Positions 17,188 to 42,477 of a DNA stretch of 64,000 bases are shown here, piece by piece. The position numbers were made by a program, and so were the translations under genes. Location of the stretch: NCBI GenBank assembly GCA_001051155.2, contig JYIP02000003.1, positions 806,001 through 870,000 of the forward strand. Reading direction: 5' to 3'. Source of the stretch: Chrysoporthe austroafricana (taxonomy: Eukaryota; Ascomycota; Sordariomycetes; Diaporthales; Cryphonectriaceae). The number at the start of each line of letters is the position of its first letter. Position 1 is the first letter of the stretch. Under the pieces are notes generated by a model. The model did not search any database, was not told where the DNA came from, and was given only the letters and a program-made list of their open reading frames with translations.

Positions 17188-18888
17188 AGATGGGGCGGGA
17201 GCGAGGGCGCTGGTGTTTGCGGGAATTAGGGAGGGACGACGGGTGGGAGCGTGAGAGCGAGAGGGGAGGAGAGAGGAGGAGGAGGATTGACTGCTCTGGA
17301 CCGAGGGAAAGCTGGGGGCCGAGAGGAGGAGGGAAGTCGGCCGGCCAGAGGTTTCCGGCGGGCCCTCCTTCGTCTGGGAGCTCAGGGCCGGGCGAGAGTG
17401 CATGTTGTCAACAAGGACGTGCTACATGTGGTTCAGCGATCCGCCGGTCCAGGTGGTCCAGAGCAGGTGCAGACAGGGCGTGCTTCAACCATGTCTGCGC
17501 CAGAGACAGAGAGCAGGGCTGCAAGCATCATCACCACCATTAGACGCTGGGGATGCTGGGATGTCTTTGTAGAGCACAGAGGACTGTAAAAAAACAGAAA
17601 AAGCACTTGCCATACTACTAAACTGGCTGAAATTTCATCAACTCTACAAGTCTTCGTCACGCCGTGCCATTTTTTGGTGAAGATTCACAGGAACAAGCAT
17701 TGCAAGAATGAACTGTTTCGTGTACCTCGTTCATCGTCTATGAAGTAAAGTTCTGGATCCGAAGCCTTCTGATGATTTAGGAAGGCCTAGCCTGAGCACC
17801 ATTGAAAGAGGTGCCTGTGACCAGAACTTCAGAAAAAGGGGAAAAGATAAAGGTCCCTCCACAAGTAACCTCCACCGCCGCAGTCAAACAACATGAAACC
17901 CTCCCCTGAATTTTGAGGCGACAATGATGGCCCATCCAGAAGGGTACGAGGACTGTTCAATGACCCCTCATCTTATGCCAAATTTGTTGCGTTCTTGATC
18001 CATGGCACAGTGGTAGTTCCCCCTCCCCTTCGGCGTAAAGTGCGTAGAACTGCAAGTCGTGATCGAACTGAATCTGTCAGCGAGAGGGCCAGCTTGCCCA
18101 CTCTCATCCTGTGTCGTGCCCGAAATCATGAAGTGACATGGCCTGGAGTCGTAAGGCCACAATTATAAAGTTGATAAGAACTAGAAGCAGACGATCAACT
18201 TTGTTTTGTGGCATGCCTCATCCGCAATGAGCTGGGGCAGAAAGGCTGGTCCGTGGCGCTATCCCAAGCCACAGGACCGAAAGAAACGTAAAAGAAACAG
18301 TAGAAGTACAGATTTTGCGTAATGAATCCGAAAGCTGCACCATTTTGCGATCTCCGTACATCCCAGACTATCGCAGTAGAGGCGAATGAGTCGAGAGCTC
18401 GATGAGTCGTTAAGAGGCAGCCAACTCAATGAACAATTAGTGCCTGGATTCAGAGGGGGAAAAAAAAGGAAAATGAAGGCTTTGCTGTGACAATGATAGC
18501 GGTTCCCATCGAACTTTGAGCAATGGGAAGCGTCCTAGCCTCGAACTTGAGAAGGTAGTCAGTCGAGAACTTCCTTCAGCACCCTCTCGCGCAGTTCGCG
18601 AGCTCTTCATACCGCCATCTTGCGGGTTTTGTGAGGACGGTGTTCCTTCTCGGGCGAGAAGCCCTCATCACCATCGTCTGTATCTTCCTGTAAGCTGCGC
18701 AGGGCTCTCTTGGAGCCAATTCTGCCCTTGCGGTTCAGGAAAATGTTTGCGTCATGGGTCTTCACAGTTCTCTTCGTCTTAGGATTACCCTCGCTCTTCA
18801 CAGTCATCTTAGTGCCAGAAATGTGCTTGTTGCCCGAGGAATCCGCAGCCATGATACTGATCTGCGTGGGCTCAAACGCGTCGAATTC
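17188..18888. other. Convergent intergenic region (uL30m / EAF3)
   Basis: No gene is recognised. One ORF of note is 18852-18607 on the minus strand (81 codons from ATG, Lys-rich). It is in the EAF3 reading frame, 36 bases past the EAF3 stop, and is treated as 3' UTR here and discussed as a finding. The rest (17.2-18.5 kb) is less GC-rich than neighbouring coding DNA and shows nothing else. Confidence 0.4.
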
Positions 18889-21487
18889 CTAACACCGCGC
18901 CTTGTCCACATACTCAGTGTCGGGAGTCATGTATTCGCTGAGGAAGTAGGCTTCGTAGTTCTTGCAGAGCCAGTTTGTGAACTTGACCAGCTCTTCGCGG
19001 AGGCGGTTCACAGACTGTAAGTCCATATTGGTTTGGCTGATCAGCTCTGGCAGGGACACTGAGCGACCGACCAGTCAGAAATGTTCAGTCAAAATAGATA
19101 TCCATCAGGTCAAAACTTACCAAGCAATCGGCTTAGATGCTCAGCTCCATATGTGGTGCTTGGTCCCTGCTCTCCACTCCACTCCTTCAGTTGTTCAGCG
19201 TACTGTAGGCGCTCGAAACTAATGTTAATGTTAGTGAAATCTGTACCATATGCAGGGGCCGCAGTGAGATGAAGGCTCACCGATACAGCAAAACCCTGCC
19301 GAGAGCTTTGTCAAAGTACTCTCGAAGGCCGCCAATGGTCTCCTCCAAGATATCAATCTGTGTGTCATCACCTGCACGGCAGGGCTTCTCATAGTCCAGG
19401 TAGTCTTGCAGAATCTTCTCCACGGTGGCCTTGTTGTGAGGAAGCTCCACAAGCTGCTGGTTCTTGGTAACATTCTCCCAGTCATCGACAAGCAGGCCTT
19501 TGAGGTGGTCGGGGAACCATAGCTTGATCGACGGTTTGCTGTGAAACGACTCTTCCTGTTCCTGATGGTCAACATTCGTCTTTTGTTGGACTTTCTCAGC
19601 CTTCCATCCCAATATGACTTTCAAGACAGCAGCTTCAATGCGCTGCTTGTCTGTCTCTCCAGACGGCAAAAGAAAATCGAGGCCCAAGATAGGGAAGTAC
19701 TCTGGGGTGTATCCTTCTCGGCTTGGGGATCGCAACTTTGCGACCCGAGGGCCATCCTTCTCAGACTCTGCAGGCTGGTCAATCTCTACGGACTGGCCAT
19801 CGGGCTGGGATATCTCTCCAGAACTGTGCGGACTGAGTTTGGTACGCTTGTTGTCTGGGGCACCCATGTTGGCACTAGCAGCATCATTGTGGCGCTTTCT
19901 CTTCCGCCGGCTGGATTTCTCGGCGTCTGGGCCAGCCGTGCTAGCAGCAGACGTTTTGAAGCCAGACGTAGCAGGGCCAGTGGCCGAGGGCGCCTCTTCG
20001 TTAGAGCCCTTAGGCTTGGGATCGCGAGACTGCTTCTTGCCGTCGAAGGGAGCGCTGCCAGAAGGGCCATTTCCAGAAGGACCGCCGCCTTGAGGTCCCT
20101 TACTCTTCGTATTGATCGCCTGGCCGTCATCATACACGCACACAAAGTCGCGCTTTGAACAGGCCTCACAGGGCCTCTCGCCATCGCACTTGGTCTTCTT
20201 GATGCGGCACATGTCGCAAGCTCGATTGATTCGAGGGCGTTTCGCGTGCACCTGGTTGCCATTGTCGGCTTTCCGCTTCTTGGAGGCCAGAGTCTTGGGT
20301 TGGGATCTCTGCGACATAGCAGTCGCTGGCGCCTTGCCCTTGCGATTGGCAACGGCGAGCTTCTTGGTAGCTGTGGTCTTTGACTGAGTCCCCTTGGTAG
20401 CTGCTGATGCTGCTAATTTGGCGCGGGTGCTCTCTGTGGCCTGTTTCTTCGCAGGCTTGACGTCTCCAGCATCCCCAGACGCGTGACGCTTGGTGCCGTG
20501 TTTCTCCCAGCCCTGTAGTGCAGCACGCGATGGACCAGCTTCCGTATGATCCTCGTCATCCACGACAAACAGCGCAGTGTTCGTATTAGTGGTCGTGACT
20601 GCGTTTCTGGACTCGGTCTGAACGGAGACAACCGGATCATTCCGAGCTCGTCTCATTCTATCGATTGAGGCAAGCCACTCCTCTTGGCCCGCTGCCTCTC
20701 TGGCCGCCTCGGTCGTGCTGTCCTCGATTGTGCTGCGCATGGCGCTAATGGGAGGCTGCACGTCCAGTTCTGCCATGACCCTGGGCGTCTTTGGCAAGCC
20801 TCGAGCTTCGTTCTGCTCGGCCTCCTCGCCACTAGCTGGCATGGGACCTTGTCCTCGCAAACGTCTGCTGTTGCGAGGGGGATTGGGGGGTTTTGCCACG
20901 GCCGCAGCCTTTCTAGCGGCCAAGGAGCCGCGCTTCTCCTTGCGCTTCCTCTGGGCAAGAGGATCAGGCAAGGCTCCGAGAGCCCGAAGCCCGTTCTCGC
21001 GCTGAGCATCTCGTATCTCTTTGTTGAACTGAGCGCGGTCCTCGGGTGCAACACCGCCGGTTGGGAGAACCAACTCATGTGGGATGCCGTCGTACCAGTT
21101 GATGACACCGGCGTCAGCGAAGCCATGAGCGTCCTTTGCTGCCTCAATTCGCGGGTGCTCTTTGTCCTTCCTGGCCGCGGCCTTGTCGGCGGCAATCTCC
21201 TTTCTGGTGCGCTTGTGGATCTTGACATCGTCGACGCTCTCGTGGATGCGGGGCGGATTCTGACTGACGGGTACGCCATTGACGATCTTGACATAGCGAT
21301 TGGTAAAGACGCTTGAGTTGTTGATACCAAGTCTCCAAGGAGGCTTGAAATCGTACTTTTCGCCCGCTCGGGCCCATTGGGCCTCCTTCCTCGCAAAGTC
21401 TACATCCATCATCTCGACAGGCCATGATTTATAGCTGACCTCAGACATGATGCCCTTGGGTGACGCTGGGCTAGCAGAGCGAGACAT
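18889..21487 (-). CDS. Zn(II)2Cys6-domain ORF inside EAF3 intron 1, in frame with the MRG exons (possible alternative isoform)
   Basis: From ATG 21487 the frame is open to 19277, crossing the EAF3 acceptor at 19562/19561 in phase. Spliced with the two last EAF3 exons (21487-19281, 19218-19121, 19058-18889) it would give 824 aa. Residues 1-110 look conserved but unknown to me (PPWRLGINNSSVFTNRYVKI, NGVPVSQNPPRIHESVDDVK). Residues 180-420 are low-complexity and basic. At about 420-452 there is a complete binuclear zinc cluster, RACDMCRIKKTKCDGE then RPCEACSKRDFVC. Residues 455-640 are disordered, ending YFPILGLDFLLPSGE and a helix before the MRG domain (from about 642). The 0.9 kb between 21488 and 22405 could be its own promoter and leader. 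Alternatives are an independent nested gene whose last exon I missed, or internal inclusion in EAF3. Confidence 0.6.
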
Positions 21488-22807
21488 GGTGAGAGTGTCA
21501 GGTAGAAGGCGTGGTGAGGTGGTGGTGATTCCAACACGCCGGCACAGATGGCGGCGCCGAAACGATGATATGGATGAGAGACTTGATGCAAATGGTGCAA
21601 GAACTCTTCGTGTGCATGTAGATGAGGAATTGAAGGGTATCTTGCGATGAATGGTGAAGGGTAGATGAAGATGGTTTGGTACAAGAGGGTGTTGCGACGC
21701 GTCCCGACGACAATGAGGTGAACGCGACCGGTGATACGCGATACGAACTCACTAAACCTCCTAGAAGTGAACGGAGGGTATTGTGATATCGATACCGAGA
21801 CGAGTCTGAGTGAAGAACGCGTTGTTGTAGTGCACGCTGCGAACGTTGCCGTTGACAGATGGTTGGTAAGGTGCGCTGAAGATGGAGGTCGCCCGGAGTA
21901 CAGATTGAGTTTGAAGTGAAAATTGTACGATGCGGACTCAGATCATACACAGCAGAAGAATGAACGATTTCACTGAATCGATCCGGGTGCAGGTCGAGAA
22001 AGGAATCAGGAAACTGCCGCTGTGGTTGTGGTTTTTGAAGTGGGCGGTGGTTGTGCGAGTTGGTGGCGAGCGTCGCGTTGGGTGGAAAAGCTGTAGCTAT
22101 TGTCGCGTTGCCCAGACAGTTTTGCACAATGGGTTTTTTGCAGTCCCAGTAGCAGCGATCCAGGCTACCAGAACAGTCCATTGAAGTAGTTCGGCCACAT
22201 TTACAACCAAACTGGTTGAGAAAAACCCAAGTGATGCCGTTGACCGAAGCGATGCCCAGCCCGCCGAAACTTCCAGCCCCAGAGCCCAGAGCATTTCTCT
22301 TCAAACTTGCCCTCTCCAGGCCATCACAAATATTCCAACAGAGTGCACAATGAAACAATGTATATAAAATTGGGGCACAATAGGGAAAAAAGGGCCGGTA
22401 CTCACATGCTCCATATCAAAATCCCTCGTCCGTCGTGGGCCGCGCCCAAGCACGGTCGCAGCACCACCGGTCCGCTCCTCACTACCACGGGCGGAGCTGA
22501 AGTCCGAGCCGTTCTTCAGAGCAGCTTTCTTCGCAGGCTTCGAGTTCTTGTGCATGCTCGCGCGGGCCTGCTCCATAAGCTGTTTAGCAAGCTCCCTGTT
22601 CTCGTCGTTGAACTTGCGGATGCGGTCCTGAGGAACCCAGTCGTCCCAAGAAGCCTTCCACCCCTTGTAGTGAATTTTATACAGGTGCAATCCATCCTCG
22701 CTCGGCTGGACCTCAAGGATCTTAGCTTCGTAGAGCATCTCATGATGGAAGCACAGGACCTTCTCATCCTTGCTGTAGGGCAGGGCGTGTGCCTTAGTTG
22801 GCGCCAT
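18889..22807 (-). CDS. EAF3: Chromatin modification protein EAF3 (chromodomain-MRG), NuA4 / Rpd3S subunit
   Basis: The exons on the minus strand are 22807-22406, 19561-19281, 19218-19121 and 19058-18889 (316 aa, usual for fungal Eaf3). Exon 1 carries the chromo/Tudor-knot domain: KDEKVLCFHHEMLYEAKILE and YKIHYKGWKASWDDWVPQDRIRKF with the aromatic cage residues. It ends RRTRDFDMEH before GTGAGT. The next exon starts EQEESFHSKPSIKL after CAG, phase 0, and opens the MRG domain (LVDDWENVTKNQQLVELP, ILEETIGGLREYFDKALGRVLLYR). This continues through FERLQYAEQL, YGAEHLSRLL, SLPELISQTNMD and NRLREELVKFTNWL. Eaf3 binds methylated H3K36 and tethers acetyltransferase or deacetylase complexes. The oddity is intron 1 (22405-19562, 2844 bases), which hosts a same-strand Zn-cluster ORF. 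It shares a 447-base divergent promoter with NKP2. Confidence 0.9.
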
Positions 22808-23254
22808 CCTTGCTGATTCCCTGAGAAGTCTGTCTCTGCTCGCGTCTAACCAAGCCAAAGAGCAATAGTTTCTAGAGGGGTTCAAGTATTGCAGTTGGGA
22901 GTATCTGACGACGATGTGAGAAAGCGTCGATATCTGACGGTCGCTTGTTGGGGACGGTGGCAGTTTTGAGCACTGGAGTGAGAGTGAGGACAAGGTCAAA
23001 GCAAGTGGTGTCTAGTATTGTATTTGGTGTCACGGGACCAGGCGATTCAGGGGCCCCGAACGCGTCTCGGGAAGGGACGGTTCCTCGCAGCTTCCTCTGT
23101 GTCAAAAGCAAGCAACGGTGAAAAGATCTTCACGAAGGCTTTGATATTATCCCGAGTTGCATCTTGGTCTGCGATTGAATCTTGTCCGTGATTCACGCTC
23201 CGCAATACTTTGCGGGTGGTCCCTCAAATTCCAAATTTACCGCAGGGCAACAAC
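22808..23254. promoter_or_regulatory. Divergent promoter EAF3 / NKP2
   Basis: These 447 bases lie between two start codons facing away from each other and hold no coding frame. No sharp motif is seen. Confidence 0.5.
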
Positions 23255-23895
23255 ATGCCGCCGACTGAAGTGGCGATCCTCACCAACTACCTGCTGGTAC
23301 CGGCGCAGCTACCAGCAATTATTTCACTCAAGGAGTTCACAAAGCTGTTCCCACGCGCCCAGCAGTCGTCACCACGAATCCGAGGGCTGTACCGGGATTT
23401 GCAGATGCAGAGAAACGCGCTCATTGACGATATTGCATCTAACATCGAGCATGAGGCGCAGCGTGGCAAGGTGCTACGTCGCGAAGCTCTAAGGGCAAAG
23501 AGGGAAGCTGAGGGCCAGGAAATGGATGACGAGATAGATATTGAGAGAGCGGTATGTTCTGTTTTATTTTTTCCCCTCAACTTTTAAATGCAATTGGTGA
23601 CTGGGTCTTGGTTGTCTTGCTGACCACAGGACAGCTTTACGGTCCGGCTTCCGGCGCTACAGGCCTGAAGCACAACATCAACTCCATCGTCCCAGAACTG
23701 GACGGCGCCGCAGAGGAGCTGGACGCTGTAGTCAAGAGCCTCGAGGATGAAGAGACCGAGTTGCTACAGTCAATTAGACAGACTGTCGGCAGCATGAGCG
23801 ATCTCCGCTATGGCCGACTCTCAAACGCGCAGTTGAGCAAGCAAGTCCTTGATGGGCTACAGACGGTCCAGGAGACATGCGAAGCAAGGAAATGA
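23255..23895 (+). CDS. NKP2: Inner kinetochore protein, Cnl2/NKP2 family
   Basis: The exons are 23255-23551 and 23635-23895 (185 aa). The Cnl2/NKP2 pattern is clear: MPPTEVAILTNYLLVPAQLP, then AIISLKEFTKLFP, SSPRIRGLYRDLQMQR and a long charged helix (IDDIASNIEHEAQRGKVLRR). A second coiled segment (ELDGAAEELDAVVKSLEDEE) ends the protein. The family is part of the fungal CCAN at centromeres. The acceptor at 23634 keeps frame; an AG five bases earlier would hit a stop. The upstream in-frame extension has only a TTG start, so ATG 23255 is chosen. It is divergent from EAF3 and convergent with the next gene 187 bases away. Confidence 0.85.
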
Positions 23896-24082
23896 AATAT
23901 CCATGGCCCGACGAGGGGCATATCCTATCATGCAAAACAGCTCTATATTACCTATGCCTAGGGCGCCTATGGCCCGCACAGCCAACAATACGCAAATCAG
24001 AGGAGCCTTCCCGCCCATACAGATATCACATCATCACCTCATCCATGCGTCGCTTCTTTTTCCGACCCCCCTCAACGATGCT

Positions 24083-25528: not shown

Positions 25529-27538
25529 ATGGTCCAACCTACCTTCGCTGCCACAGTAAAAGGCGGATTGTGTCTTCCCACAACGCCGTATGAGCCGCAC
25601 AATGGTAAGCGCACTCTTTTCATATACTTGCACGCCATCTGACATGAATATGGGCCTCCAAGCCCCCAGATCAAAAGCGCAAACGCGGTCGGCCATCAGG
25701 CGCGTCCAAGCCCGCTCAAGACGCGTCGAGGCAAGAAGCCGCTGAGGACCATGACAACCAAGACGCTGAGGAGGAGGCGCGGCCCAAGAAACGAGGTCGG
25801 AAGGCTAATCAACGGGAGCCTGCTACCACTTCGGCACCCGAGGAGCAGGATGCCTCTGCGCAACGTAGGGGGGGAGGTCGGCCGCCTAAGGGCGAGAAGC
25901 ACAACGCGGACGCAGAGGCCGAGCACACTTCCGAGACACAGGGCAAGGGCGCCAGACAAAGACAGCATGACATGGCAAATGGCAACATTCGATCCGCGAG
26001 GGGAAAGGGGAAGGCAGTGGAGGTGACAGCGGACGAGACAAGACCAGACCACCCGCCGCAACAGAGCTCGAGCCCTCCTGACGATCCCAGCCAAATGCCG
26101 GCCCCTCCACAGCGATCGCGGAAAGAGCCCGAAGCTGAACCGCCTAGTTCATCACCGAAACGAAGTGGAAGGGGGCGACGGACACGGGATTTGGATACGG
26201 TGTTTGGCAGGTCTCGTCAGAGCCATGGACAAGAGGCGGAGCCTACAACAGCCGCGAAGAAGAATAAGCCTCAAAAGCCGCCAGATGTATCACAGGACAA
26301 GACAGGTACCCCTAATACGCGGAAACAAGGACCTACGGCAAGCGACAGCATGACGAAGAAGCGTCGCGGGCGGCCACGGCTGGAGAGGAACGACAGTCCC
26401 GGAGAGGGCTCGTCTGGGCCGAGAAAGACCAAGCAAGTAAAGAGTCAGCCCAGGACAACAGAAGGGGCGCGGGCCGAAGCTATGGATCGAGCTGAGGAAG
26501 CTACGCAGCCAAAGCGTCGAGGCCGCCCACGGACTTCCAATGTATCAGCACATGTTCCAGACCATGATCAGCCATCCCCGTCCCACGCAACTCCGAAGAA
26601 GGCCAGACGGGGCGCACCACGGACTGAAAGACCAGAGCCGGAGGCTGAAGAATCGACAAGCCCAGAACCCGAGAGAGAACAACAGCTACCATTTCGACAC
26701 CTCAAAGAGATTATACGTAGCATCCCACGGTCCACGATCGAAGACAAGTGGGCCCCTCTTGATCCTCCGTCCATCAACATCGTCAGTGCGATCTTGGCCG
26801 ACGCACAACGACCTGTCCTTCTCAACCTACAAGATACCAATCAGCGCCGCCAGCACGCCTCATCAGCCTTGGCACAGGTATCGCAGCGACTACGTGGCAA
26901 ACTGATGAGAGGCTTTCCTTTTCCAGCTCCCACCGCCGTAACAACCACACGCGGCAACTCCGGCAGCCACGAGGAAGATCTTGACTTCGAGCGGACGGTG
27001 GATGCAACCCAGACCCTTGAGAATACTCTGAACCCGCTACTGCACTCCGTCAGCTTGCTGCAGAAGGAGATCCAAAAGGAGGAGGATGCGCTGGCAAAGG
27101 ACTACGATCATCTGCACAAGCTGGAGGCCAACGCGAAGCGTGAGGCTAAGGAATGGAAGGAGAAGGCGAGGAGGGAGCATGTCCTTGCGCCTGGTGTGAA
27201 ATCGAAGGGCAGAGGTGATGATGATTTCAGGGACACCTCAGAACTTGTGTCGACGCTCGAGGGTGAAATCTTGGGCGGACTCTTTAAGGTACGTTTCCTG
27301 AGCACCGCAGTCGGTCCTGATCAAGCACTAATGATGATTGTATTGGATACAGGACCTGCAACACGAGGAACTCGCCTCCCTCTCTAAACAGATCGGGAGC
27401 CATATGGAGAGCTTGAAAGGCAACCTGCAGCAGATCGGCGGCGTCGTACCTGCTATCACCAAGAGCAAGGCGGCCTTACAGCAGGTGTTGCTAAAGCATC
27501 TGGATGACGAACAGTATGAAAGTGTTCTGCTTGGGTAG
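25529..27538 (+). CDS. CENP-Q / Fta7-like kinetochore protein with AT-hooks
   Basis: The exons are 25529-25604, 25670-27288 and 27353-27538 (626 aa). The N-terminal half is disordered and rich in AT-hook motifs: KRGRPSG at about 30-36, KKRGRK, GGRPPKG, KRRGRPRLE and KRRGRPRTS. The C-terminal half is the CENP-Q part: LKEIIRSIPRSTIEDKWAPL, SINIVSAILADAQRPVL, SALAQVSQRLRGKL, then coiled coils (TLNPLLHSVSLLQKEIQKEE and LQHEELASLSKQIGSHMESL). CENP-Q partners CENP-U in the COMA-type inner kinetochore complex. The start exon is the least certain part: ATG 25529 gives 25 codons that splice in phase onto DQKRKRGRPS, the motif where I expect the family to begin. Two genes away lies another CCAN subunit (NKP2). 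Confidence 0.78.
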
Positions 27539-41116: not shown

Positions 41117-42267
41117 TCACAATGGCGGCGGGGGACCAGTGGGGGAGGGAGGGCGAACTTCAGGGCGAGGGCGCGTATAGCAGGCGTCCGTGCACAGGCG
41201 GAGCACCACGACGGGGTGGACCTCGGGCATGCGCGCGAGCGTCGCCTTCACCCACGGGTGGTCCCACCGCGCGGCGCGGCCCGGGGGCGGCCTCATGAAC
41301 CCGCCGGCGGAGGGCCGCGCGGGCACCGTAACCCAGGTCTGGTCGCGGAGGTGCGCGGCGCCGGGCCGGCCGGCGAAGTAGCGGAGCCAGGTGTGCCATA
41401 GGTCCCCGTGGAAGGCCTCGCGCGTGCGCGCGACGTAGATCCCCTTCCTGGTGCCAGGCCGGGGCGTGTTGAAGAAGGCCGGGCCGCGGATGAAGTCCTC
41501 CTGCCGCCCGCACGCGCGCCAGAACTGGCGGTAGGCGTGGAGGCGCGGGGCGTCGAAGGCGCCCACGAGCACGATGCGCTCCTCGCCCAGCAGGCCCCAG
41601 AGGCCGGAGCGGACGGCGGCGGCCTCGTCGGCGACGTGGAGGACGGCCACGCCCACGCAGACGGTCCAGCGCGGGCGCTCGGCCAGCGTCGTCATGAACT
41701 CGTCCATTTTGTCGGTCGGGTTCATGTCGAGCGGGCCCCCCGTGACGGCCAGGGCGAAGTCCGCCGGCGCAGAGGCGGGCACGGGAGGGGGGCACGTCGA
41801 TGCAGTCGAGCGGCCGGCGGTCCTCGAGCGGGTGCCAGCGCACGTGCAGGGTGTCCCTGGCGCGGTCGAACCAGTAGCTGGGGATGGGCTCGGCGGCCTG
41901 GCGGTCCGTTGCGTGGAACGGCCGCGGCGCTGCTCTGTGCACGCCGCCGGTCAAGAGCGCCACGGCGCGCGCCTCGCGGCAGACCGTCGAGATGACGGGA
42001 GGGGCCGAGTTGGCCCTAGACGTGTGCAGCATTGAGCAGCGCAGGTGATTTAGGTCAACGTCTATATACATTGGCGGGCATCTGTCCGAACAGACCCATG
42101 GTATTTCGGAGTGGTTTGCCTCGATGACGCGGTGAGGGAGGCAGTGTCTCCAGACGGCGTCCCGCAGCTCCCTGGGCAGGTCCGGGAAACTTGTGGAAGG
42201 ACGACAGCGCAGCAGGAGCAGCAGCAGCAGGAGCAGCAGCAGCAGGAGCAGCAGCAGCAGCAGCCAT
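41117..42267 (-). pseudogene. 2EXR-domain (fungal F-box-like) gene interrupted by two frameshifts
   Basis: From ATG 42267 the frame reads an Ala-rich leader (poly-GCT repeat) and SSFHKFP. It must then shift, at the GG of the cccggacc string near 42186, to reach DLPRELRDAVWRHCLPHRV, the core of the fungal 2EXR domain. A second shift is needed at the C6 run near 41795 (minus-strand GTGCCCCCCTCCC), where DCIDVP passes to VPASAPADFALAVTGG and on to the stop at 41117. Both need removal of one base. The downstream part has conserved-looking Trp/Arg-rich text (RKGIYVARTREAFHGDLWHTW), so the gene decayed recently or the errors are in the assembly. The normal length would be about 380 aa. 2EXR proteins are numerous in filamentous fungi and of unknown function. 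Confidence 0.65.
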
Positions 42268-42477
42268 CTTGGAGCGGGCTGGACGTCGAGGCGAAAGACC
42301 GAGGCAGAGGCTGTGAGTCTGGTGGTTGTCAACTTTGTCGGATCCAAGGAGGGCGGGCGACAGAGCTGACCCCGCGTCGGGCTATTTGAAGGTGAACAAA
42401 GGTGACACAGATGAAGGTTGGGGGAGGAGAGGGAGACAAATCAGAAGCAAGACAAAAGCAAGGAAGAAAAAGCAACA

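Follow-up and report, generated by a model that had tools for sequence, protein, structure and literature searches.

The chromo barrel is a reader of H3K36 methylation, and Eaf3 is common to a deacetylase complex (Rpd3S) and an acetyltransferase complex (NuA4); it has long been asked how complexes that share Eaf3 are distinguished from one another and directed to their targets. One and the same MRG surface docks both Rco1 and Eaf7, according to a published study (PMC10220053). The described Eaf3 is one-headed, and in the locus presented here, exon 1 and the MRG exons likewise encode an ordinary chromo barrel–MRG protein of the Eaf3/MRG15 kind, whereas a second, zinc-cluster head lies in the first intron. 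This second head resembles the Gal4-type Zn2Cys6 factors in that all six cysteines of the cluster are present and the match exceeds the Pfam cut-off, and differs from them in its C-terminal effector, which is an MRG domain. The fungal_trans middle homology domain is frequent, though not universal, in classical Zn2Cys6 transcription factors; as this domain (PF04082) is not matched in the zinc-MRG protein at E <= 1, we do not claim the label of a classical Zn2Cys6 transcription factor for it.

Zinc clusters are also found in proteins that act with chromatin complexes. Ume6 is a Zn2Cys6 protein that brings the Sin3-Rpd3 deacetylase complex to its DNA site, and by analogy the zinc cluster protein proposed here would likewise recruit a deacetylase complex; in contrast, Ume6 is the product of a separate gene and contacts Sin3, rather than being an alternative form of one of the subunits. 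Rsc3 and Rsc30 bring zinc clusters into a chromatin complex, the RSC remodeller, and match the zinc region of our profile weakly (E 0.00075 and 0.0068), but they come from separate genes and are not known to have a module in common with a histone-mark reader. With respect to gene structure, the closest comparison is with hybrid internal-terminal exons and with GNAS XL-alpha-s, a case of an alternative first exon: a second promoter makes an internal exon part of a first exon, as we propose here, with the difference that a 642-codon, domain-bearing frame alters the targeting domain in our case. The Trichoderma Xlr2 switch differs in that it uses microexon splicing, and the passage that describes it mentions neither a chromodomain nor MRG. 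A start site within a coding intron, used mainly in the exponential phase, is described for a Cryptococcus locus in another report (PMC11302930). A Zn2Cys6-MRG protein is not named in the part of the literature surveyed.

Anatomy of the EAF3 locus

The locus lies in a window of 64,000 nucleotides, the whole stretch of Chrysoporthe austroafricana DNA that was analysed, and comprises the following features (slashes mark splice junctions):

22406..22807 (-): EAF3 exon 1, with the start ATG and the head that encodes the chromo barrel; phase 0 end, followed by a GTGAGT donor at 22405
19562..22405 (-): first intron of the transcript for chromodomain-MRG, GTGAGT...TTGAC...CAG; length 2844 nt, or 2850 nt with an end at 19556
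21488..22110 (-): putative promoter and 5' leader of a Zn2Cys6-MRG transcript; upper bound set by eye
19562..21487 (-): alternative head, 642 codons from ATG 21487 in the MRG frame, with a conserved N-terminal region, zinc cluster and linker
20126..20224 (-): binuclear zinc cluster of the Zn2Cys6 type (Pfam match over residues 421-453 in the query of 735 aa)
19556..19580 (-): dual-use junction, with branch-like TTGAC and tandem acceptors CAG/GAACAG/GAAGAG; the zinc frame reads NVDHQEQ
19281..19561 (-): MRG exon 2, shared (PF05712, E 3e-28); begins at 19555 with the second acceptor
19121..19218 (-): MRG exon 3, shared, placed by spliced translation and alignment with Eaf3 orthologues
18889..19058 (-): MRG exon 4, shared (PF05712, E 1.8e-11); contains the Eaf3 stop TAG at 18891-18889
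18607..18888 (-): coding-like in-frame extension of 93 codons directly after the TAG; possible alternative C-terminus

As the earlier note had proposed, the chromodomain exon and the MRG exons join phase 0 to phase 0 into a normal Eaf3, with a spliced coding sequence of 951 nt that specifies 316 aa, or 314 aa with the second tandem acceptor. An N-terminal chromo barrel is thereby followed by a C-terminal MRG domain spliced in frame, the protein terminates with ...EYVDKARC at the same end point as its orthologues, and the best full-length Eaf3 among the best 120 of 1832 matches has 69% identity with 100% query coverage. Introns 2 and 3 measure 62 nt apiece. In its own genome, this locus is the sole match to MRG, and Eaf7 is encoded there as well. 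Exon 1 matches the Pfam families MSL3_chromo-like (E 1.7e-22) and Tudor-knot (E 6.2e-10), has a coding score of z 5.4, and in a region-wise comparison its residues 10-80 are 73-79% identical to those of six Eaf3s. As exon 1 is conserved at least as well as MRG relative to these six proteins, the first head is not decaying.

The same note had placed the end of the locus at 18889. The Eaf3 stop is indeed there, but coding-like sequence continues in frame to 18607. This extension has a coding z of 4.5, with none of 5000 shuffles scoring as high and the frame remaining open in 87 of the 5000; it has no Pfam match at E <= 1 and occurs once in the genome. Both predicted products may acquire an additional tail, 83 to 94 residues long, either via sexual-stage A-to-I editing of the UAG, with the A at 18890, or via a 57-nt alternative intron at 18913-18857. 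The A of the UAG is placed in a hairpin loop in RNA folds of 43 and 61 nt, and in a one-by-one internal loop in the 101-nt fold, but as none of the three folds exceeds its shuffles in stability (z 0.21, -0.13 and -0.23), the structure gives weak support for editing.

The intronic frame: coding character and conservation across the junction

The 2844-nt intron 1 contains a same-strand open reading frame with a complete zinc cluster, whose length, put at about 640 codons in the earlier note, is 642 codons from ATG 21487. From stop to stop, the frame extends from 21748 to 19277 (823 codons) and stays open in the MRG frame across the acceptor, also as claimed before, and across both tandem acceptors; spliced with the MRG exons, it is predicted to encode 824 aa. 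The assertion that such a long open frame is unlikely by chance stood up well, as 729 codons are open to the acceptor, whereas in 2000 dinucleotide-shuffled versions of the intron this run averaged 33.6 codons and never exceeded 213. By codon score, the zinc frame exceeds the other sense frames in all six successive blocks and is the best of all six frames in five of them, the exception being the first block, where an antisense frame scores higher (+0.100 vs +0.064). The coding score of the whole frame (z 7.0) was not reached in any of 1000 shuffles, while the zinc-linker part has a lower codon score than the Eaf3 exons.

The zinc cluster itself is assigned by PF00172 (Zn_clus) with an E of 2.6e-9 and 37.5 bits vs a cut-off of 21, and matches GAL4 chains in the PDB. 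In the query of 735 aa, its cysteines occupy positions 423, 426, 433, 439, 442 and 449 and are spaced C-x2-C-x6-C-x5-C-x2-C-x6-C. For the N-terminal 215 residues, no PDB profile match was obtained at E <= 1, and an AlphaFold model based on a 4-row alignment was poor (mean pLDDT 41).

A search of 5.77 billion proteins yielded three relatives (P0001-P0003) that can be aligned end to end and group beside Diaporthe and Cytospora. They are 38-49% identical over the whole alignment, and their local BLASTP matches cover 100, 43 and 72% of the query at 44, 42 and 34% identity. All three continue from the zinc cluster into MRG in one frame (PF00172 and PF05712), and the six cysteines are invariant in the four sequences, two of which have two zinc clusters. 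The N-terminal region is highly conserved (z 25-44 in all six pairs), as is the zinc region (z 15-20), whereas the middle region (residues 216-412) shows no conservation across the two subclades (z -0.5 to 1.4). The linkers between zinc cluster and MRG are unequal in length (194, 206, 183 and 154 residues), yet in frame in all four sequences. Within the clade adjoining Diaporthe and Cytospora, the frame is therefore conserved through the junction. A stand-alone relative of the zinc head was not found with a single query or with an alignment query (about 8000 candidates scored per query), and neither a chance frame nor a separate zinc gene with its own stop, both of which the earlier note had weighed, is favoured by these data.

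At the junction, the zinc frame is predicted to read NVDHQEQEESFH. A further sequence, P0113, is 90% identical to the query, has intron-side residues where a chromodomain would be, and reads MWTNIDKQ/EQEDSFH... through to the MRG end. It lacks introns 2 and 3 and is therefore probably RNA-derived. P0113 begins at an internal Met, and since the protein search yielded no long zinc ORF of this type, a stop, a truncated contig or the choice of the gene caller may each be the reason. All five sequences have N-[VI]-D-x3-Q ahead of E[DE]SFH and MRG, which here matches the branch-like TTGAC and CAG, as would follow from retention of the chromodomain-side acceptor within the coding frame. The residues EQ that are added by the first acceptor are missing in all 15 other fungal Eaf3s that were aligned, picked from the best 120 of 1832 matches, whereas the second acceptor, with the exon starting at 19555, gives ...DFDMEH/EESFH as in other Eaf3 proteins and is 13 nt away from the branch-like TTGAC (7 nt for the first). 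The second acceptor thus fits the other fungal Eaf3s better.

Upstream of the zinc frame, the codon score is negative in all six frames from 22399 to 21488. The putative leader is pyrimidine-rich, with a C+T content of 0.61, a value attained in 2.3% of 2536 stretches of equal size, and poor in ATGs (two within 22100-21501), and the ATG at 21487 has a good start context (CTCACCATGTC). Together with P0113, the ATG context and the leader composition point indirectly to a second start inside intron 1. A strong donor-like GTGAGT is present at 21752 within the putative leader; if used and joined to the MRG acceptor, it would remove the zinc head by splicing.

The origin of the intronic sequence was also considered. 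A mobile-element origin was rejected, since only short and mostly imperfect repeats of <= 24 nt surround the ORF and the non-zinc part has no second copy in the genome; the 14 other matches in the own-genome search are confined to query residues 386-531, the stretch surrounding the zinc cluster. Searches for related DNA gave 35 pattern matches in prokaryote contigs and 37 in viral contigs, none of which was confirmed, and Rfam had no match within 18000-24000.

Two proposed heads for one MRG module

Judged from these sequence features, EAF3 is probably a two-headed gene, with a lineage-specific second promoter that gives rise to a Zn2Cys6-MRG isoform. In transcripts from the upstream promoter, exon 1 would be spliced across the 2.8-kb intron to the MRG exons, resulting in ordinary Eaf3. 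From the second promoter within intron 1, a transcript would begin upstream of ATG 21487, and its zinc-head first exon would read straight across the splice acceptor to give a product of roughly 824 aa, with the long N-terminal region and the Zn2Cys6 cluster, instead of the chromodomain, preceding the shared MRG module.

It is unlikely that the zinc head is instead a nested separate gene, whose transcript ends or splices before the MRG exon and gives no fusion protein. Introns that harbour a gene on the same strand are known, and the 42 residues directly preceding MRG show weak conservation from one subclade to the other (z 0.5-3.4), as such a gene might permit, but the frame has no stop until 19277, three of three relatives are in frame into MRG, and the zinc head has no stand-alone relative among the candidates scored. 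The single donor-like GTR[AGT]G[TC] in the 1926-nt zinc ORF, vs 2.5 expected from codon shuffles, is neutral in this respect, as 561 of 2000 shuffles have as few. We also consider it improbable that zinc-MRG is the main product in the clade and that the chromodomain exon gives a minor or chromodomain-only product. Full-length Eaf3s among the best 120 of 1832 matches all have <= 69% identity, yet P0113 has 90%, which would agree with this idea; however, database coverage of the clade is thin, exon 1 has an intact donor besides being conserved at least as well as MRG, and the acceptor-like junction is kept in all five sequences. A single long chromodomain–zinc cluster–MRG protein, with exon 1 spliced to an acceptor near the zinc-frame start, is very improbable: the phase 0 end of exon 1 is the phase that the zinc frame requires, but among the listed acceptor-like sites with a branch-like motif, none in phase 0 is upstream of the conserved N-terminal region, the first in-phase one being at 20951, and the ATG at 21487 not only has a good start context but opens with MSR, a start that is shared with P0001. 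A chance open frame or dead insertion has next to nothing in its favour except that sense frames of up to 526 codons occur somewhere in the shuffled introns (mean of the longest 163.6 codons, 2000 dinucleotide shuffles), and it is contradicted by the end-to-end alignment with three relatives and by the codon signal.

For the two-headed gene, the identity of the domains suggests DNA binding by the zinc cluster and an MRG that is still able to dock its partners. As MRG docks Rco1 of Rpd3S and Eaf7 of NuA4, the zinc product would recruit these complexes, or one of them, and would carry them to a DNA sequence instead of a methyl mark. Standard gene models would miss the zinc head because the intron is spliced out, and the in-frame ORF within a host intron would create a new domain architecture. 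More tentatively, we suggest a conserved two-headed gene in which promoter choice aims the MRG module either by mark or by DNA, with a doubly constrained acceptor and possibly a tail. If this is true, it predicts a recruitment that is sequence-specific and independent of H3K36, and nature would have provided a separation-of-function tool in which the docking module is kept and the methyl reader is exchanged for a zinc cluster.

EAF3 and the frame inside its first intron

The chromodomain exon of EAF3 joins the MRG exons phase 0 to phase 0, as the earlier note had claimed, and the spliced frame of 951 nt encodes a normal Eaf3 of 316 aa. Intron 1 comprises 2844 nt, introns 2 and 3 62 nt each. 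The exons and the neighbouring inner kinetochore frames are as follows.

22807-22406, minus strand: EAF3 exon 1, chromo barrel, ending in phase 0 with donor GTGAGT
19561-19281, minus strand: EAF3 exon encoding MRG
19218-19121, minus strand: EAF3 exon encoding MRG
19058-18889, minus strand: EAF3 exon encoding MRG
23237-23587, plus strand: Cnl2/NKP2 frame, inner kinetochore (E 8.5e-27), divergent from EAF3
25648-27384, plus strand: CENP-Q frame, inner kinetochore (E 1e-26)

The two kinetochore frames lie about 2 kb apart, both on the plus strand; elsewhere, a 2EXR-family ORF (E 2e-13; 41163-42440, minus strand) overlaps the most GC-rich kilobase of the window (0.74, 41-42 kb). Among the best 120 of 1832 matches, the closest Eaf3s come from Diaporthe vaccinii, at 69% identity, and from three Cytospora, at 65-67%. 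Across the 22 contigs of the genome (48.15 Mb), the EAF3 locus is the sole MRG match at E <= 0.001. Compared by region with six Eaf3s, chromodomain residues 10-80 are 73-79% and the MRG part 64-68% identical, and exon 1 is, judging by its sequence, free of decay. The chromodomain-MRG junction has a tandem acceptor with two sites 6 nt apart (19555-19561, CAG|GAACAG|GAAGAG), by which Glu-Gln is added or dropped. The first AG, at which the earlier note had placed the acceptor, is indeed in phase 0, but the second AG gives the usual fungal Eaf3 junction (...RDFDMEH|EESFH...), and the EQ pair added by the first is missing in all 15 other Eaf3s aligned, which we chose from the same 120 matches.

It had been proposed that a second transcription start inside intron 1 would yield a Zn2Cys6-MRG isoform beside the ordinary Eaf3; as both acceptors are in phase 0, this argument is not altered by acceptor choice. 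The postulated intronic ORF of about 640 codons with a zinc cluster begins at ATG 21487 (context CTCACCATGTC) and runs for 642 codons to 19562, and it does cross the MRG acceptor in the MRG frame without a stop, continuing through exon 2 to a TGA at the very beginning of intron 2. Within this one frame, PF00172 (E 2.6e-9) is followed by MRG (E 3e-28); spliced to exons 3 and 4, the frame encodes 824 aa. That such a frame would hardly stay open by chance is borne out by shuffling, as the open run up to the acceptor is 729 codons long versus a maximum of 213 in 2000 dinucleotide-shuffled introns. With a codon usage score trained on 11 other long frames within the window, the zinc frame is the top-scoring of the three sense frames in all six successive blocks, one antisense frame outscoring it in the first block, and over its whole length it reaches z 7.0 (0/1000 shuffles as high). 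The 912 nt upstream of the zinc ATG (22399-21488) have negative codon scores in all six frames. In the 623 nt preceding the ATG, a stretch whose upper limit was set by eye, C+T is 0.61, a value reached by 2.3% of 2536 stretches, and ATGs are few, which matches our expectation for a fungal leader. A donor-like GTGAGT lies at 21752 (minus strand) inside this putative leader; joined to the MRG acceptor, it could, if used, remove the zinc head.

Relatives of the zinc-MRG frame

Used as a query against 5.77 billion proteins, the zinc-MRG frame had four matches. Three of them (P0001-P0003, each from one contig, 25.4-33.5 kb in size) can be aligned from end to end, with 38-49% identity (BLASTP local identity 44, 42, and 34% over 100, 43, and 72% of the query), and in each of the three, zinc cluster and MRG share a frame. 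The fourth, a Penicillium Zn2Cys6 protein that has fungal_trans, matches 15% of the query. The one match added by an alignment query was to a zinc cluster and covered 7% of the query. With neither query was a stand-alone relative of the zinc head seen among the approximately 8000 candidates scored in each case, namely those sharing most words, so that rare or distant forms could escape. In a regional comparison of the window with P0001-P0003, the N-terminal 215 residues gave z 25-44 in all six pairs, the zinc region z 15-20, and the linker z 2.1-10.8. The middle region of the zinc head (z 7.1 and 14.6 within subclades versus -0.5 to 1.4 between them) and the final 42 residues ahead of MRG (7.0 and 8.2 versus 0.5-3.4) are more divergent between subclades. 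Linker lengths differ (194, 206, 183, and 154), and the frame is nonetheless preserved in all four sequences. The zinc head contains two clusters in P0002 and P0003 and one in the window and P0001, and a cluster was therefore gained or lost within the clade.

A further relative, P0113 (190 aa, on a 4448-nt contig), starts at an internal Met with intron-1-side residues in place of the chromodomain (MWTNIDKQ), followed by MRG to the normal end. P0113 covers 58% of Eaf3, with 90% identity to the window in this part. As neither intron 2 nor intron 3 interrupts it at the corresponding positions, the sequence probably derives from RNA. No long zinc ORF of the P0113 kind was among the matches in the protein search (approximately 8000 candidates scored). 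In all five sequences (the window, P0001-P0003, and P0113), N-[VI]-D-x3-Q|E-[DE]-S-F-H stands ahead of MRG with constant spacing, within a stretch that otherwise shows little conservation between subclades. The codons of the window at this place, AAT GTT GAC ... CAG, combine a branch-like TTGAC with the acceptor. The simplest reading would be that all five retain a working chromodomain-side acceptor inside the zinc-MRG coding frame. In a tree of 30 rows of our choice, in which P0001-P0003 and P0113 are represented by their MRG parts alone, these four and the window form one group (98/90) that adjoins Diaporthe plus Cytospora (100/99). From this position, the host most probably belongs to the Diaporthales or their vicinity.

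An open extension behind the EAF3 stop

Directly 3' of the EAF3 TAG (18891-18889), the frame remains open for 93 codons (18888-18610).

18888-18607, minus strand: in-frame open extension, 93 codons

Its coding signature (z 4.5; 0/5000 shuffles as high) compares with z 4.7 for exon 2, and the frame is open in 87 of 5000 shuffles. Nine proteins compared end at the position of the EAF3 stop or at most 2 residues away, and the gene is thus not broken. The tail could be expressed via a candidate in-frame intron of 57 nt (18913-18857, GTATGT...ATCAG), or via A-to-I editing of UAG to UGG. Such editing is described as a sexual-stage feature of Sordariomycetes that yields C-terminal extensions, with stop-loss events in 323 genes of Fusarium graminearum (PMC4817773, PMC11156358, PMC11087585). 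When 61 nt centred on the stop-codon A are folded, the span used in the 2016 paper, the A falls within a hairpin loop, and when 101 nt are folded, within a one-by-one internal loop; neither fold around the UAG was stronger than those of shuffles.

Two proposed heads for one MRG module

At the sequence level, the interpretation of EAF3 as a locus with two heads is largely supported, and this through the relatives. Alternative promoter, Eaf3, and zinc cluster are kinds already known; in a superficial survey of the literature, we found no description of a Zn2Cys6-MRG product. A start within a coding intron, used mostly in exponential phase, is reported for one Cryptococcus locus (PMC11302930). 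The chromo barrel is described as a reader of H3K36me2/3, and Rco1 and Eaf7 as docking on one MRG surface (PMC10220053); Eaf7 is encoded in the genome of the window. DNA binding, start site, and partner choice of the zinc-head isoform are inferred here. If it arose once, the arrangement is as old as the ancestor of the window, P0113, and P0001-P0003. As the zinc-head isoform would retain MRG and lack the methyl reader, it may be expected to bring Eaf3's MRG partners to a DNA site or to compete for them.
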